Notes under the pieces: generated by a model
The model's database searches: none
The model's input: the letters and a program-made list of their open reading frames with translations, nothing else
What the model was told of the DNA's origin: nothing
In this document: positions 1 to 8,972 of the stretch, piece by piece
How the letters are laid out: each line of letters begins with the position of its first letter
How positions within the stretch are numbered: the stretch's first letter is position 1
Translations under genes and position numbers: made by a program
Assembly: GCA_003210695.1 (NCBI GenBank)
Contig: QCUW01000002.1
Coordinates: 1-52,395, forward strand
DNA: 52,395 nucleotides
Direction of reading: 5' to 3'
Source of the DNA: Prochlorococcus sp. AG-679-P15
GTDB taxonomy: Bacteria > Cyanobacteriota > Cyanobacteriia > PCC-6307 > Cyanobiaceae

Positions 1-2
1 GT

Positions 3-965
3 TCATTAGAACGTGAAATAGAATTATTCAATAAAACTGTTTTTAAAGGTTATGAATCACTGTATTCAGAAGCTGAAATAAAGGGTATATTTTTGGAATC
101 TACCTTGGTTCAGAAAGCAATTGAAGGCCAGAAAATTTTAATTGTTCTTGATCAGACTTCTTTCTATGGTGAATCTGGCGGACAAGTTGGCGATATTGGA
201 ATGATATTTTCAACTGATCTAGAGGTGATTATTGATAATGTCGTACGAAAGAAAAATGTTTTTCTACATTATGGAGTAGTGAAAAAAGGAATAGTAACTT
301 GTGGAAAAAAAGTCCAGACTAAAGTTAATGCCTCTAATAGAGCTAAGGCGGCAGCAAATCATACCGCTACACACTTGTTGCAAGCTGCTCTTAAAAAAGT
401 TGTTAACAAAAGCGTAGGACAAAAAGGTTCATTAGTCGCCTTTAATAAATTACGATTTGACTTCAATTCTTCTCAACCAATTTCTAAAGATCAAATTTCT
501 AAAGTTGAGACTTTAGTAAATTCTTGGATTATGGAAAACTATTTCGTAGCCACAAAAAATATGGCTAAGAGTGAGGCTCTTGAGAAAGGGGCAGTAGCTA
601 TGTTTGGAGAAAAATATGATGATGAAGTAAGAGTTGTAGATGTACCAGGTGTTTCGATGGAACTATGTGGAGGAGGTTTTGTAGTTAATATTTTGCGAGA
701 AGATAACTATCAAAAAATGTTTAGACACTTTTTAAAAAGATTTACACCAGGAGCAGACAGATTTGCTGAAGTAGACATAGTTAGCAATATCGCAAATGGT
801 GGGCCAGTACTATCTGATTCTCTAGCCTTCTTAGATTGTAAGGTAAGCTCCCGATTAGAGACTCCAGATCATTGGATAATTTACGGAATAGTCGAAAATG
901 GAAATGTCTCAGATTTATCCTGTAAAACAGCTGTTCATCATAGGAAAGTTGCAAATCATTATTAA
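3..965 (+). CDS. Chimeric ORF, 5' partial: alanyl-tRNA synthetase internal part (to about 674) fused in frame to the C-terminal flavin-reductase domain of a diflavin flavodiiron protein (about 675-965)
   Basis: Reading frame is open from position 3. AlaS-like [39 protein letters not shown], then an abrupt switch to Flv-type [30 protein letters not shown]...[12 protein letters not shown]...[12 protein letters not shown]. Confidence 0.85.
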
Positions 966-981
966 AAATAAATCTTTAAAA

Positions 982-2784
982 ATGTCAGAAATTAATACAA
1001 GCTTACCTTTAGAAAATCAAAACTTATCAACTTTTGAAATTACTGAAAATTTTACTTGCATCAGATTTCTTAATCAAAATAAAGAAAGATTCGAACTTGA
1101 ATTTAATCTTGAAAAAGGAACATCTTTCAACACCTTTCTAATTAGAAGTAATAGAGAACTTTTTATTATTCATCCTCCTGAAAAAGAATATTCAAAATCA
1201 ATTAATAAATTAATATCTACCTTTTTTAATCAATTTGATTTAAACAAAATTAACATTATTACAGGTCATATAAATCCCAAAATTATTGAAACTATAAAAA
1301 GTATAAGTACAAAATTCAGCAACTTAACTATCACATGCTCGAACCCTGGATTTAAGCTTATTAGCGAACTTTGGAATCAAAAAAATCCAAATTTAACAAA
1401 TTTTATTGACGTTCAATTGCCCGAAATCAACGTCATAAAAAAAGAACTTAGTTTAGAACTAGAAAACAATTTGTTAGAACTTATTCCTATTCCAACTGCG
1501 CGCTGGCCTGGTGGATTAATCGTTTATGAAAGTAATGAAGAAATCCTTTTGAGTGAAAAAGTTTTTTCTGCTCATATAGCAAGTGAAGACTGGTCAGAGA
1601 AGAACCGAATGAGTACAGAAATTGATAGAAAGCATTTTTATGATTGTCTTATGGCGCCAATGTCTAATCAAATCGCAACAATTACAGAAAAAATTTCTGA
1701 ATTAGATATTAAAAGTATCGCCCCAATCCACGGACCAGCAATTGAATATAGCTTAAAAAGCTTTTTAAATGACTACATTAGATGGGGCGGGGACCTTTCT
1801 AGAAATAATCCTAAAATTGCCTTGATATACGCTAGTGCATATGGCAATACAGCTTCAATAGGAGATGCATTAGCAAAAGGTATCAATAGAACTTCGGTAG
1901 AAGTTGAAAGTATTAATTGCGAATTTACATCTAATGAGCAACTAATAAAATCCATTCAAAATGCTGATGGCTATTTAATCGGATCTCCCACTTTAGGTGG
2001 ACATGCCCCTACTCCTATAGTCAGTGCTCTTGGTAGTTTATTGTCTGAAGGAAATAGAGATAAACCAGTAGGGATATTCGGTAGTTTCGGATGGAGCGGG
2101 GAAGCAATAGATTTACTTGAAACAAAATTAAAAGATGGTGGCTTTAAATTTAGTTTTGATCCAATAAGAATAAAATTTAGTCCAAATAAACCAAAAATTA
2201 AAGAACTGGAAGAAATTGGTACTCATTTTGGTAGAAAAATATTAAAAAAAGCAAAACAAAAAATTAGAAAATCTGATACTGGAATGATATCTAGTAAAAC
2301 CGATCCAACTTTGCAAGCTTTAGGAAGAGTGCTTGGTTCACTCTGTGTTCTTACTGCTTCTAAAGGAAAAGATGAGAATAATATAAAGGGAGCAATGCTT
2401 GCATCTTGGGTAAGCCAAGCAAGTTTTTCTCCTCCTGGATTAAGTATTGCAGTGGCAAAAGACAGATCAGTAGAATCGCTTCTCCAAATAGGCGACTCTT
2501 TTGCATTAAATATTCTTGGCGAAAAAGATTTCAGGGAACCTTTAAAAAGATTTACAAAACCTTTTTCGCCCGGAGAAGATAGATTTGAAGGTTTGAATAT
2601 AGAATTTACACCTAATGAGCAAGTAATTATTCCTGAGTCTTTAGCATGGTTAGATGCTTCTGTAAAAGAAAGAATGGAATGTGGAGATCACTGGGTAATA
2701 TATGCTGAGGTTTTACACGGCAATGTATTAAAATCCGAAAGCTTAACTGCTGTTCATCACCGAAAAAGTGGAGCTAACTATTAA
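982..2784 (+). CDS. Diflavin flavodiiron protein (Flv1-like, degenerate metal ligands)
   Basis: Metallo-beta-lactamase-like + flavodoxin (IALIYASAYGNTASIGDALAKGI) + flavin reductase domain (DHWVIYAEVLHGNV...AVHHRK). Start moved to ATG 982 (MSEINTSL). Confidence 0.88.
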   Translation: MSEINTSLPLENQNLSTFEITENFTCIRFLNQNKERFELEFNLEKGTSFNTFLIRSNRELFIIHPPEKEYSKSINKLISTFFNQFDLNKINIITGHINPKIIETIKSISTKFSNLTITCSNPGFKLISELWNQKNPNLTNFIDVQLPEINVIKKELSLELENNLLELIPIPTARWPGGLIVYESNEEILLSEKVFSAHIASEDWSEKNRMSTEIDRKHFYDCLMAPMSNQIATITEKISELDIKSIAPIHGPAIEYSLKSFLNDYIRWGGDLSRNNPKIALIYASAYGNTASIGDALAKGINRTSVEVESINCEFTSNEQLIKSIQNADGYLIGSPTLGGHAPTPIVSALGSLLSEGNRDKPVGIFGSFGWSGEAIDLLETKLKDGGFKFSFDPIRIKFSPNKPKIKELEEIGTHFGRKILKKAKQKIRKSDTGMISSKTDPTLQALGRVLGSLCVLTASKGKDENNIKGAMLASWVSQASFSPPGLSIAVAKDRSVESLLQIGDSFALNILGEKDFREPLKRFTKPFSPGEDRFEGLNIEFTPNEQVIIPESLAWLDASVKERMECGDHWVIYAEVLHGNVLKSESLTAVHHRKSGANY

Positions 2785-2797
2785 ACTTATTTAATTT

Positions 2798-3322
2798 ATG
2801 ACTCAATCAAAAGAGCTTATAATCATTTCAGCTAGTTGTGGGAAAAATCTAGAACTTTCGAAAAAATTTCAAGAGAAAAGTAGTGAACTGAATTTTACTT
2901 CTGAAATTTTAGATCTTACTACTTTTGATATTCCATTATTTAATCCACGAATTCATACAAAAGAAAAAATTCCAGTTGAAATAATGAAAATAAAAGACAA
3001 GCTTTTTGCTACTGAAAAATGGATTATATGTGCTCCTGAATACAACGGTTCAATACCTCCAATACTCTCAAATTTAATTGCATGGCTATCCGTCTCAGGA
3101 GATGATTTTAGAGATTTATTTAATGGACAACCAATTGCTATTGCAACTTTTTCTGGTGGTGTTGGGTTAGAATTACTAACCTCTTTGAGAATTCAATTAG
3201 TACATTTAGGAAGTCAAGTATTGGGAAGACAGCTATTATCATCTTTTAGTAAACCAATTGATGTAAAAACAATTGAAGATATAATTTTACGACTATCACA
3301 AATGCAAAAATTAAAAATATAA
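2798..3322 (+). CDS. NADPH-dependent FMN reductase-like flavoprotein
   Basis: 174 aa, flavodoxin-like fold; APEYNGSIPPILSNLIAWLS motif typical of NAD(P)H:FMN reductases. Confidence 0.8.
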   Translation: MTQSKELIIISASCGKNLELSKKFQEKSSELNFTSEILDLTTFDIPLFNPRIHTKEKIPVEIMKIKDKLFATEKWIICAPEYNGSIPPILSNLIAWLSVSGDDFRDLFNGQPIAIATFSGGVGLELLTSLRIQLVHLGSQVLGRQLLSSFSKPIDVKTIEDIILRLSQMQKLKI

Positions 3323-5148: not shown

Positions 5149-5298
5149 TTATATTCCTTTCTTTAACAAATTTTTTTCTAACATGTCAATAATCTTTTTA
5201 ATACTTTTAAGTTTTTGAACTAAATATTTATAATCTTTTGGAAAGTTACCTTTATTATATTCCAAATTCGATATATCTTTTTGATCATTATTAGTCAT
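5149..5298 (-). CDS. Small conserved-looking hypothetical protein, 49 aa, below the supplied ORF-track cutoff
   Basis: ATG at 5298 to TAA at 5149-5151: MTNNDQKDISNLEYNKGNFPKDYKYLVQKLKSIKKIIDMLEKNLLKKGI; fills the gap upstream of the PBP2 gene, same strand. Confidence 0.5.
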   Translation of the reverse strand: MTNNDQKDISNLEYNKGNFPKDYKYLVQKLKSIKKIIDMLEKNLLKKGI

Positions 5299-5411
5299 AA
5301 ATATATTGATAGGTTTAATTCAAATAAACTCCTTTTATATTATCCTAAATAAATTACGAATCATCAAAAATAATATTAAGCTTAAAAAATAATGCTATTT
5401 AATTCAGCATT

Positions 5412-6020
5412 TTAAATTGACTGATCTAGATTTTGTTCAAAATAAGGATTACAACTGTTTTTTGAAATCCCTGAAGACCAGCCAATAAAAGCCGAGATAA
5501 ATATAACGACAATTATAGGTAGTAAAGCTTGCTGAGTATTTTCAAGAATCAACCATTCTTTCCAGCTTCTAATGAATCTATCTCTTTGAAATTTTCTTTT
5601 TTCGCTTTGTTTAGCTTTAGCTTTTTTAGCAAAAGAATTTTTTACCCACTTTTCAAAAGATAATTTTTTTGTGATTGCCATTTTCCTCTCAACTTCTAAT
5701 AATTGTCCAGAATTAAGCTGAGGATGAAAAGTACTTATAAGCTCTAGAGTCTTAAGAAACATTTCTACACTTGCATCTTTTATTAGCTTTTGATCTTGAC
5801 TTAAATCAGCCCAATCAATTTCAGGATAAAACCGATTTCTATTTGACTGAATTTGCTCTTCTGACATTTGTCCAGGTTCTCTCAACCATCTATTAGTATT
5901 TTCATCAAACCTTCTCCAATATAAAAAGGGATTAATAAAAATTGTTTTGCCTGCAATTTTGACAACATCTTGTTGTAGATGACTGCTAATTTTATTATTA
6001 GAACTTTTCGGCTTAAGCAA
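5412..6020 (-). CDS. Hypothetical protein with C-terminal transmembrane segment
   Basis: 202 aa ORF; C-terminal LLPIIVVIFISAFIGWSSG hydrophobic stretch. Confidence 0.75.
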   Translation of the reverse strand: MLKPKSSNNKISSHLQQDVVKIAGKTIFINPFLYWRRFDENTNRWLREPGQMSEEQIQSNRNRFYPEIDWADLSQDQKLIKDASVEMFLKTLELISTFHPQLNSGQLLEVERKMAITKKLSFEKWVKNSFAKKAKAKQSEKRKFQRDRFIRSWKEWLILENTQQALLPIIVVIFISAFIGWSSGISKNSCNPYFEQNLDQSI

Positions 6021-6106
6021 AATCTGAAATTTATTCTCTACTTAAAGATTATCTTTATTTAAAAAATTTTTCCAGAAATATCTAACAATATTATTTTTCA
6101 GTTTAA

Positions 6107-6823
6107 TTAATTAAAATTTGACAACTGCCAACGCTTCTTTAAATAATTACAATATTCGCATTTTAAGGATGGTGGAGGAAACTCATTAGATCTTAATAAC
6201 TTTACTGTTTGAATCACCTTACCTTCTACCCATGATGATGAGCAATTTACCTTAATAAAATGCACGTCAAATTTTAACTGATTATTAAAAAACTTTTCAT
6301 TCTTTTTCGCATTGAAATAGAGAAGATAGGCTTCATCCGCTACTTTGAAACCATTTTTTCTAAATAACCACTGATACATTTCTAATTGTCTTTTATATCC
6401 CTTTGCATAATCATATTTATTGAAAGTTTCAAACCAATCAAAATTATTTTTTGATGTTGCTTTTACATCAACGATAATAAGCTCTCCATTTTTTTTTTGC
6501 CAGATATCATCCACCGCGCCGCCAAAATCGTAATTATGATCATAGGATTTGTATCTTATACCTTTAAAATTACTTCTCCATATATCTATATCTTTATGTT
6601 TAAAGGGTACAGCATCAATATTATGTTCAATAAATAAAGGGTGAGGCTCCTGAATATCGCGATAATAATCAAATTCATTTTTACACAAATTATCTACGGC
6701 AATATTTAAAGTAAATGGTAGTGCTGGAGGTTTTATTTTATGCTTTTTATCAAGAATGCAACATCTTGGGCAATTAATATATTTTTCAACAGTAGACCTA
6801 CTTAATTTAATAACTTCTTCCAT
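6107..6823 (-). CDS. PD-(D/E)XK nuclease family protein (RecB/Cas4-like) with N- and C-terminal cysteine motifs
   Basis: GGAVDDIWQKKNGELIIVDVKATS (D...D-x-K core), QLEMYQWL (QxxxY motif), N-terminal NCPRCC and C-terminal CEYC. Confidence 0.8.
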   Translation of the reverse strand: MEEVIKLSRSTVEKYINCPRCCILDKKHKIKPPALPFTLNIAVDNLCKNEFDYYRDIQEPHPLFIEHNIDAVPFKHKDIDIWRSNFKGIRYKSYDHNYDFGGAVDDIWQKKNGELIIVDVKATSKNNFDWFETFNKYDYAKGYKRQLEMYQWLFRKNGFKVADEAYLLYFNAKKNEKFFNNQLKFDVHFIKVNCSSSWVEGKVIQTVKLLRSNEFPPPSLKCEYCNYLKKRWQLSNFN

Positions 6824-6872
6824 AATTATTTTGTATGTTTTTTAAAAATATAAAAAATAATAAAATTATTTT

Positions 6873-6894
6873 TTATTCCCACTTAATTGTTCCA
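6873..6894. repeat. Distal copy of the guaA 3'-end direct repeat (att-like)
   Basis: ttattcccacttaattgttcca; 20/22 identical, same orientation, to 8963-8984. Reverse complement reads GTIKWE*, versus GTIEWE* of guaA. Confidence 0.7.
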
Positions 6895-7112
6895 ATTCTA
6901 TAAAACCCCTACTGAGACAGGTAAAATTTTTGCCTGAAAAAACTGTGAAAAACCAAATTATTCCTAACATTATTTAAGGGATTTTACTTGTTGCACTCAT
7001 TGTAGAGAATTCGTTAGAAATTACAATTAAATTAAATCCTTATTAAGCAAGAAATATTTTTAAAATTTTTTATAAAGACTATAATCACTTAAAGAAATTA
7101 TCTTGATTAATA

Positions 7113-8597
7113 ATGAAAGGTTTTGGCGAAAAGAACCAATCAAAGAGAGAAAAAATACCAAAAAATAAACAGAAAGCAAATATCGATCAATTGATTAAAA
7201 AAGCATTCGAACTACAAACACAAGGAAAGCAATTAGAGGCTGTAAAATACTATTCAAATCTTATTAAACAAGGAATAAAAGACTATAGATTGTTTTCAAA
7301 TTATGGAGCGTTCCTAAACGAGATTGGAAAACATAAAGAAGCAGAATTAGAACTTAAAAAAGCAATATATTTAAATCCTAAATATGCAAATGCTTACTAT
7401 AATCTTGCAGTTGTATCAATTGGTCAAAGAAATTTTGAAAAAGCAGAATTAGAACTTAAAAAAGCAATAAAACTGAAATCCGACTTTGCTATTGCTTACT
7501 ACAATCTTGGATTTATTTTAAAACATCTGGGTCGATTAAAAGAGGCAGAGTCATTTAATCAAAAAGCACTAGAAATCAATCCTCAACTTACTGATGCATA
7601 TTTTTCACTATCAACTATGCAAGCAAGTGATAAAACTCAAAAATGGCACAATCATCTTTTTTCTGAAAGTCTTTTAAAAAATAAAAATAATAGAGAGTTG
7701 GTGAATATTTTTTTCGCAAGATCAAATATTCTTCATAAAGAGCAAAATTACAAAGAAAGTTCTAGATATCTTCAATTGGCAAATAGATTAAAACTTGATC
7801 TTAACCCCTCTAAACCTGAGCTGATATTTAATAAATCAAAATTATTATTTAATGAATCTAATAAAAAAGGCATCAATCAAGAAAAACAAGCAAATTACCC
7901 TGAGAGTATTTTTATTGTAGGTATGTTTAGAAGTGGTTCAACATTAGTCGAATCAATTATTAGTATGAAAACTGATGTTTATGATCTTGGTGAGATTGAT
8001 TTTCTAGAAGAATCATTCATTGAAAGTAAGAAATCTAAACAAGAATTAAATCTTGCTAATTTTTATTGGAAAAAATTAAATAATAAGACTAAATTGAATA
8101 TCACAACTAATAAAAACTTATTTAATTATCAATTTACAGGGATTATTGCTCAGAAGATACCAAACGCAAAAATTATTCATTGCTTTAGACATCCATTGGA
8201 TAATATTCTTTCAATTTACCGAGCACATTTTGCTGGTGGAAATGAATATTCCTCTTCCTTGGTTGATTCAGCAAAAGTATATTTAGATCAAGAAGAATTA
8301 ATGACTGTATATAAGAATAGATTTAGATCAAAAATATATGACTTGAATTATGACTCACTTGTCATTAATCCTAATCAAGAAATTAAATCTTTAATATCTT
8401 GGTTGGGTTGGGAGTGGGAAGATAAGTATCTATTACCACATCTCAATACGCGTTCAGTTGAGACAGCAAGCAATGTTCAGGTGCGGTCACCAATCAATAC
8501 AAAATCTTTAGGAGGATGGAAAAATTATGAGGATATGCTTAGACCTGCGATGGAAATTCTTACTCAAAAAGATAAATATAAAGATCTTAAGTATTAA
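7113..8597 (+). CDS. Tetratricopeptide repeat sulfotransferase family protein
   Basis: N-terminal TPR units (AELELKKAI...NPKYANAYYNLAVV); sulfotransferase PAPS-binding FIVGMFRSGSTLVESI and downstream FRHPLDNILSIYR. Confidence 0.88.
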   Translation: MKGFGEKNQSKREKIPKNKQKANIDQLIKKAFELQTQGKQLEAVKYYSNLIKQGIKDYRLFSNYGAFLNEIGKHKEAELELKKAIYLNPKYANAYYNLAVVSIGQRNFEKAELELKKAIKLKSDFAIAYYNLGFILKHLGRLKEAESFNQKALEINPQLTDAYFSLSTMQASDKTQKWHNHLFSESLLKNKNNRELVNIFFARSNILHKEQNYKESSRYLQLANRLKLDLNPSKPELIFNKSKLLFNESNKKGINQEKQANYPESIFIVGMFRSGSTLVESIISMKTDVYDLGEIDFLEESFIESKKSKQELNLANFYWKKLNNKTKLNITTNKNLFNYQFTGIIAQKIPNAKIIHCFRHPLDNILSIYRAHFAGGNEYSSSLVDSAKVYLDQEELMTVYKNRFRSKIYDLNYDSLVINPNQEIKSLISWLGWEWEDKYLLPHLNTRSVETASNVQVRSPINTKSLGGWKNYEDMLRPAMEILTQKDKYKDLKY

Positions 8598-8609
8598 TCA
8601 AAATAATAT

Positions 8610-8972
8610 CTAGAGAAAACCACTACCACTCATTGGGTCTATAACCAATGAGTCATTAGCTGTGTACTTATCGATTAGATAAGTGGCAATAGGAGGAGGA
8701 AACTTTCCAAAAAATCTCATCGCACCATGTGTGGCATAAGCAAGTTGTTTGTTAGTTCCCAAGGCAGTCCATGCTTCTAATTTCGCATATCCTTCTAAAT
8801 TAGCCCTTTTCATTTTTTCTATTTCATCAGGAAATAACTGACGTCTCTTTCGAACCTCAAGACCAATTTTCGTTTTTTCTAAATTGCTTGTGGAATAACT
8901 CACTATCTTATTATTATTAGTTTTTAGATTTTTTTTATTTATTAAGATATACGGGTATGCTATTACTCCCAC
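8610..8972 (-). pseudogene. Truncated DNA methyltransferase (N-terminal part through motif I only)
   Basis: HGAMRFFGKFPPPIATYLIDKYTANDSLVIDPMSGSGFL* ends right after motif I (DPxxGSG); no (D/N/S)PP(Y/W/F) catalytic motif. Nominal GTG start lies inside guaA. Confidence 0.65.

Follow-up and report, generated by a model that had tools for sequence, protein, structure and literature searches.

The first open frame of the DNA analyzed here raises the question of whether an alanyl-tRNA synthetase (AlaRS) and a diflavin flavodiiron protein (Flv) are fused in a Prochlorococcus cell, or whether parts of their genes, alaS and flv1, were joined only in vitro. The whole stretch, referred to below as the window, is a complete contig of 52,395 bp (contig C2 of assembly G000), so the frame starts at a contig end.

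The open frame and its two halves

The frame occupies positions 3-965 on the plus strand. In the list of open reading frames it counts 320 codons uninterrupted by a stop, and on the left it runs off the contig. In profile searches, its residues 1-228 resemble AlaRS (TIGR00344, profile positions 447-665 of 847), and residues 224-304 correspond to positions 55-135 of 153 in the Pfam family Flavin_Reduct. The AlaRS half is 95% identical to the AlaRS of AG-388-D03, and the C-terminus of the first diflavin Flv aligns with residues 221-320 at ~95%. The frame does run uninterrupted from AlaS into Flv, as the original prediction had proposed. At the nucleotide level, positions 1-674 are 90-96% identical to the real genes of relatives, and the sequence from 668 onward about 87-93%. 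Judged by this nucleotide identity of both halves to real genes, the frame is chimeric, and a chance alignment is excluded.

Neither half is complete. The left part (1..674, plus strand) is an internal piece of alaS, inverted with respect to the rest of the contig and 96% identical to positions 5999-6672 of the AG-388-D03 locus (L035). Its likeness to class II alanyl-tRNA synthetases, up to 96% in nucleotides, marks it as a genuine AlaRS segment; unlike those enzymes, it is truncated at both ends, once by the contig edge and once by the junction, at AlaRS residue 668 of 886. The cut falls in the editing domain, within CGGTH, which we take to be the zinc motif of that domain. To its right, the Flavin_Reduct match is missing profile positions 1-54, which leaves incomplete domains on both sides of the join. 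The flv1 remnant (675..965, plus strand), identified by this domain and by a nucleotide identity of 88-93% to relatives, comprises the last ~96 codons; the di-iron and flavodoxin domains and the first part of the flavin-reductase domain are gone.

Sequence collinear with that of relatives resumes 3' of the chimera, from flv2 onward. The latter (985..2784, plus strand) is an intact second diflavin flavodiiron gene with ODP, Flavodoxin_1 and Flavin_Reduct domains. The arrangement resembles that of cyanobacterial diflavin Flv pairs in that a C-terminal flavin-reductase segment of flv1 precedes an intact flv2, but differs from them in that flv1 has neither its di-iron nor its flavodoxin domain. 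The next open reading frame (2798..3322, plus strand) is a normal neighbor, assigned by sequence appearance and synteny as an NAD(P)H-dependent FMN reductase-like gene, and is found in the same place in AG-388-D03 (L035 412-936).

Gene order in relatives and the junction

The closest relatives are the Prochlorococcus single-cell genomes AG-388-D03, AH-716-K03, AG-402-N10, AG-442-M23 and AG-347-J22. In the loci of relatives, window positions 1-674 align on the plus strand and the sequence from 668 onward aligns on the minus strand. The order in AG-388-D03, with neighboring genes named from sequence appearance, is FMN reductase-like (minus), flv2 (minus), flv1 (minus), alaS (plus), a minus-strand gene and an ndk-like gene. 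The same divergent arrangement (flv2 and flv1 leading away from alaS on the opposite strand) is present in 72 of 72 scorable loci, scorable meaning that both pieces lie within the fetched sequence; the fetched set includes the isolates MIT 9302, MIT 9401 and MIT 9314. Genomes assembled in one contig, G022 and G041 among them, likewise have the two genes on opposite strands. A same-strand order of alaS and flv1 occurs in 0 of the 72 loci, contrary to the order alaS-flv-flv originally expected. The two breakpoints lie 3,603-3,609 bp apart in these loci, and the skipped distance is accordingly 3.6 kb rather than the predicted loss of ~2 kb. In AG-442-M23 (G025), an extra minus-strand gene of ~263 codons is located between the two flv genes (L042 1779-2570).

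The fusion is private to one genome. In a genus-wide search of 101 genomes, 95 (including the source assembly itself) have matches, either to the AlaRS part or to the Flv part; among the matches listed for the 94 relatives none spans the junction, and the window alone does so. A nucleotide search with 1.3 kb over the junction finds 8 genomes of the same genus with separate matches and none across the join. An established fusion architecture, which the original prediction had allowed for, was therefore rejected on the lack of a match across the junction in relatives and of any same-strand locus.

Projection of five relatives side by side onto the window places the breakpoint between 673 and 675, within TGGAGGAGG (668-676), where a chimera at microhomology had been predicted. 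Normal alaS reads ..ATGTGGAGGA followed by ACTCATG.. (with GGCGGA in one relative), normal flv1 reads ..GTTGGAGAA followed by GGTTTTG.., and the window reads ATGTGGAGGA followed by GGTTTTG. It tracks alaS to 673/674 and flv1 from 674/675. The stretch common to both genes (668..674) is 7 nt long with one mismatch, TGGAGGA in alaS and TGGAGAA in flv1 (TGGAG[G/A]A). As judged on the relatives' sequences, the match is 6/7 nt in all five; strict identity right at the break extends over 1 nt, and 5 more matching positions lie past the mismatch. The frame stays open because this microhomology sits in the same register in alaS and flv1 (GGA GGA and GGA GAA). An open frame across the junction is a matter of chance, and would be expected about one time in three by chance alone.

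Inverted structures and missing sequence in the assembly

The assembly is estimated to be 69% complete, with 1.08 Mb in 68 contigs. Most of it was compared with ~1.05 Mb of AG-442-M23, and 671 kb aligned, so that the number of chimeras found is a lower bound. Beyond the window, at least four further inverted structures are present. Self-comparison of contig C41 (L179) reveals two inverted copies of a 1.9-kb segment, 99.9% identical (1-1927 and 5253-7179), which give the contig a hairpin-like form; the join, at 1910-1920, has an overlap of 11 nt. A second inverted duplication, also found by self-comparison, occupies both ends of contig C22 (L160; 1-3195 and 16232-19426, 3,195 bp, 100% identity); both copies hold recR-like, PsbP-like and ABC-transporter-like genes, and the structure is very likely an MDA (multiple displacement amplification) chimera. 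It is difficult to account for near-identical inverted copies of ordinary genes at contig ends by anything but amplification. Contig C29 (L167) contains an inverted join at 295-303, ~300 bp inside the contig end, where the pieces overlap by 9 nt; this join is likely to be a chimera as well. The inverted join at 5827 in contig C17 (L155) has a 1-nt overlap and connects loci ~60 kb apart in AG-442-M23, and its halves lie apart from each other in those related genomes where both occur; it could be either an intermolecular chimera or a genuine rearrangement. The C41, C29 and C17 joins were not found in the related genomes searched, and the ~1.05 Mb of AG-442-M23, taken as a control, contains no inverted repeat of at least 150 bp at 99% identity or above. 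Another candidate, on contig C3 (3.5-kb gap, 166-bp match), was left uncounted, as its pieces do not abut.

The start of the contig lies only 674 bp from the alaS-flv1 junction. When the normal 4.3-kb region of AG-388-D03 (L035 3050-7340) is compared with the source assembly, the sole match is window 1-674. The start and the end of alaS, the start of flv1, the skipped 3.6 kb and the reciprocal junction were not found in this 69%-complete assembly. Nor does it hold an intact alaS or flv1 elsewhere, although an intact alaS copy had been suggested as one way to reconcile the fusion with a living cell; the only other match of the flavin-reductase type is an unrelated gene of 30% identity on contig C40. 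Taken alone, the absence of the ends of alaS, the start of flv1 and the reciprocal junction is weak evidence in an assembly of this completeness.

Origin of the join

With very high confidence, the alaS::flv fusion can be regarded as a chimera made in vitro during whole-genome amplification of DNA from one Prochlorococcus cell and preserved at a contig end. The inverted join, the other chimeras in the assembly and the contig end bear out the artefact of MDA or assembly that the original prediction had offered as an alternative; its chimera stands as well, and its strand, gene order and deletion size do not when measured against the 72 loci of relatives. A single-cell origin of the assembly is suggested by its relatives, mostly AG-/AH- single-cell genomes, by its fragmentation and by its chimeras. 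For published Prochlorococcus SAGs, amplification was by MDA or WGA-X and assembly by SPAdes --sc (PMC6122165).

The probable cause is MDA. Among the 475 chimeras that Lasken and Stockwell (2007) analyzed after MDA of a single E. coli cell, over 85% combined an inverted orientation with loss of the sequence in between, the joined sites being mostly <10 kb apart, and complementarity of at least 2 nt was present at the join in 93.5% of such inversions (PMC1855051). The fusion resembles these phi29 products in being inverted, in joining sites 3.6 kb apart with the intervening sequence skipped, and in the occurrence of several such structures per assembly. Its short junction complementarity may be a further likeness: 2-21 nt would be expected for such a chimera, and here 6 of 7 nt match. 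The fusion differs in that it was found in assembled contigs, whereas the published chimeras were observed in raw reads (PMC1855051), and in the one mismatch within its complementarity.

A plausible sequence of events begins with amplification by phi29 MDA or WGA-X, during which a nascent strand, its displaced 3' end lying in alaS (..TGTGGAGGA-3'), would anneal to flv1 DNA that had itself been displaced as a single strand. Annealing would take place through ~7 imperfectly complementary bases, at a site 3.6 kb away on the same branched molecule. Extension of the annealed strand on flv1 would then join alaS in inverted orientation to flv1 and skip the 3.6 kb between them; the mirror image of this event, with the strand switch beginning in flv1, would give the same product. 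If the true path had little or no coverage, the chimeric arm may then be where the assembler let the contig end.

The strongest competing explanation, and a very improbable one, is a real 3.6-kb chromosomal inversion with breakpoints in alaS and flv1, which would leave two chimeric genes. A simple inversion would yield exactly the observed junction, and microhomology-mediated inversions are known in nature. However, a real inversion also needs a reciprocal junction and an inverted segment beyond base 1, neither of which is in the assembly. Such an event would also cut alaS at residue 668, in CGGTH, in an assembly that has no other alaS; the inversion junction is in no relative examined, and the abundance of amplification-type chimeras in the assembly argues against it further. 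It is just as improbable that a small inversion in a natural Prochlorococcus cell has produced an in-frame fusion of AlaRS with the Flv C-terminus that is devoid of AlaRS editing and C-Ala function.

A computational mis-assembly, in which the assembler made a false join and no chimeric molecule existed, is slightly less probable still. Such an error would suit a junction that lies close to a contig end and within a short, imperfect repeat. However, assembly k-mers are much longer than 7 nt, and an imperfect similarity of that length is too short in comparison; several inverted joins in one assembly are also a better fit to real chimeric molecules. The short repeat at the junction could likewise be cited for a same-strand alaS-flv deletion of ~2 kb, which is practically dismissed by the opposite strands of the two genes in all 72 loci: because the genes are divergent, a deletion cannot put alaS and flv1 in one frame, and an inverted join with a 3.6-kb omission is therefore needed.

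As an amplification chimera, the fusion is almost certainly not a new protein, with no biological function and no fusion protein expected in the cell. It is of no importance as biology, and serves instead as a caution about a single-cell-type assembly with several inverted chimeras: novel fusions or inverted repeats near the contig ends of this assembly should be checked against the gene order of relatives before they are believed.

Farther along the window, positions 6875-8967 form a variable site beside guaA. By sequence appearance, the genes there are a TPR-sulfotransferase-like one at 7113-8597 and, at 8610-8972, a methyltransferase-like fragment of 120 aa; AG-442-M23 has ~15.5 kb of other DNA at this site.
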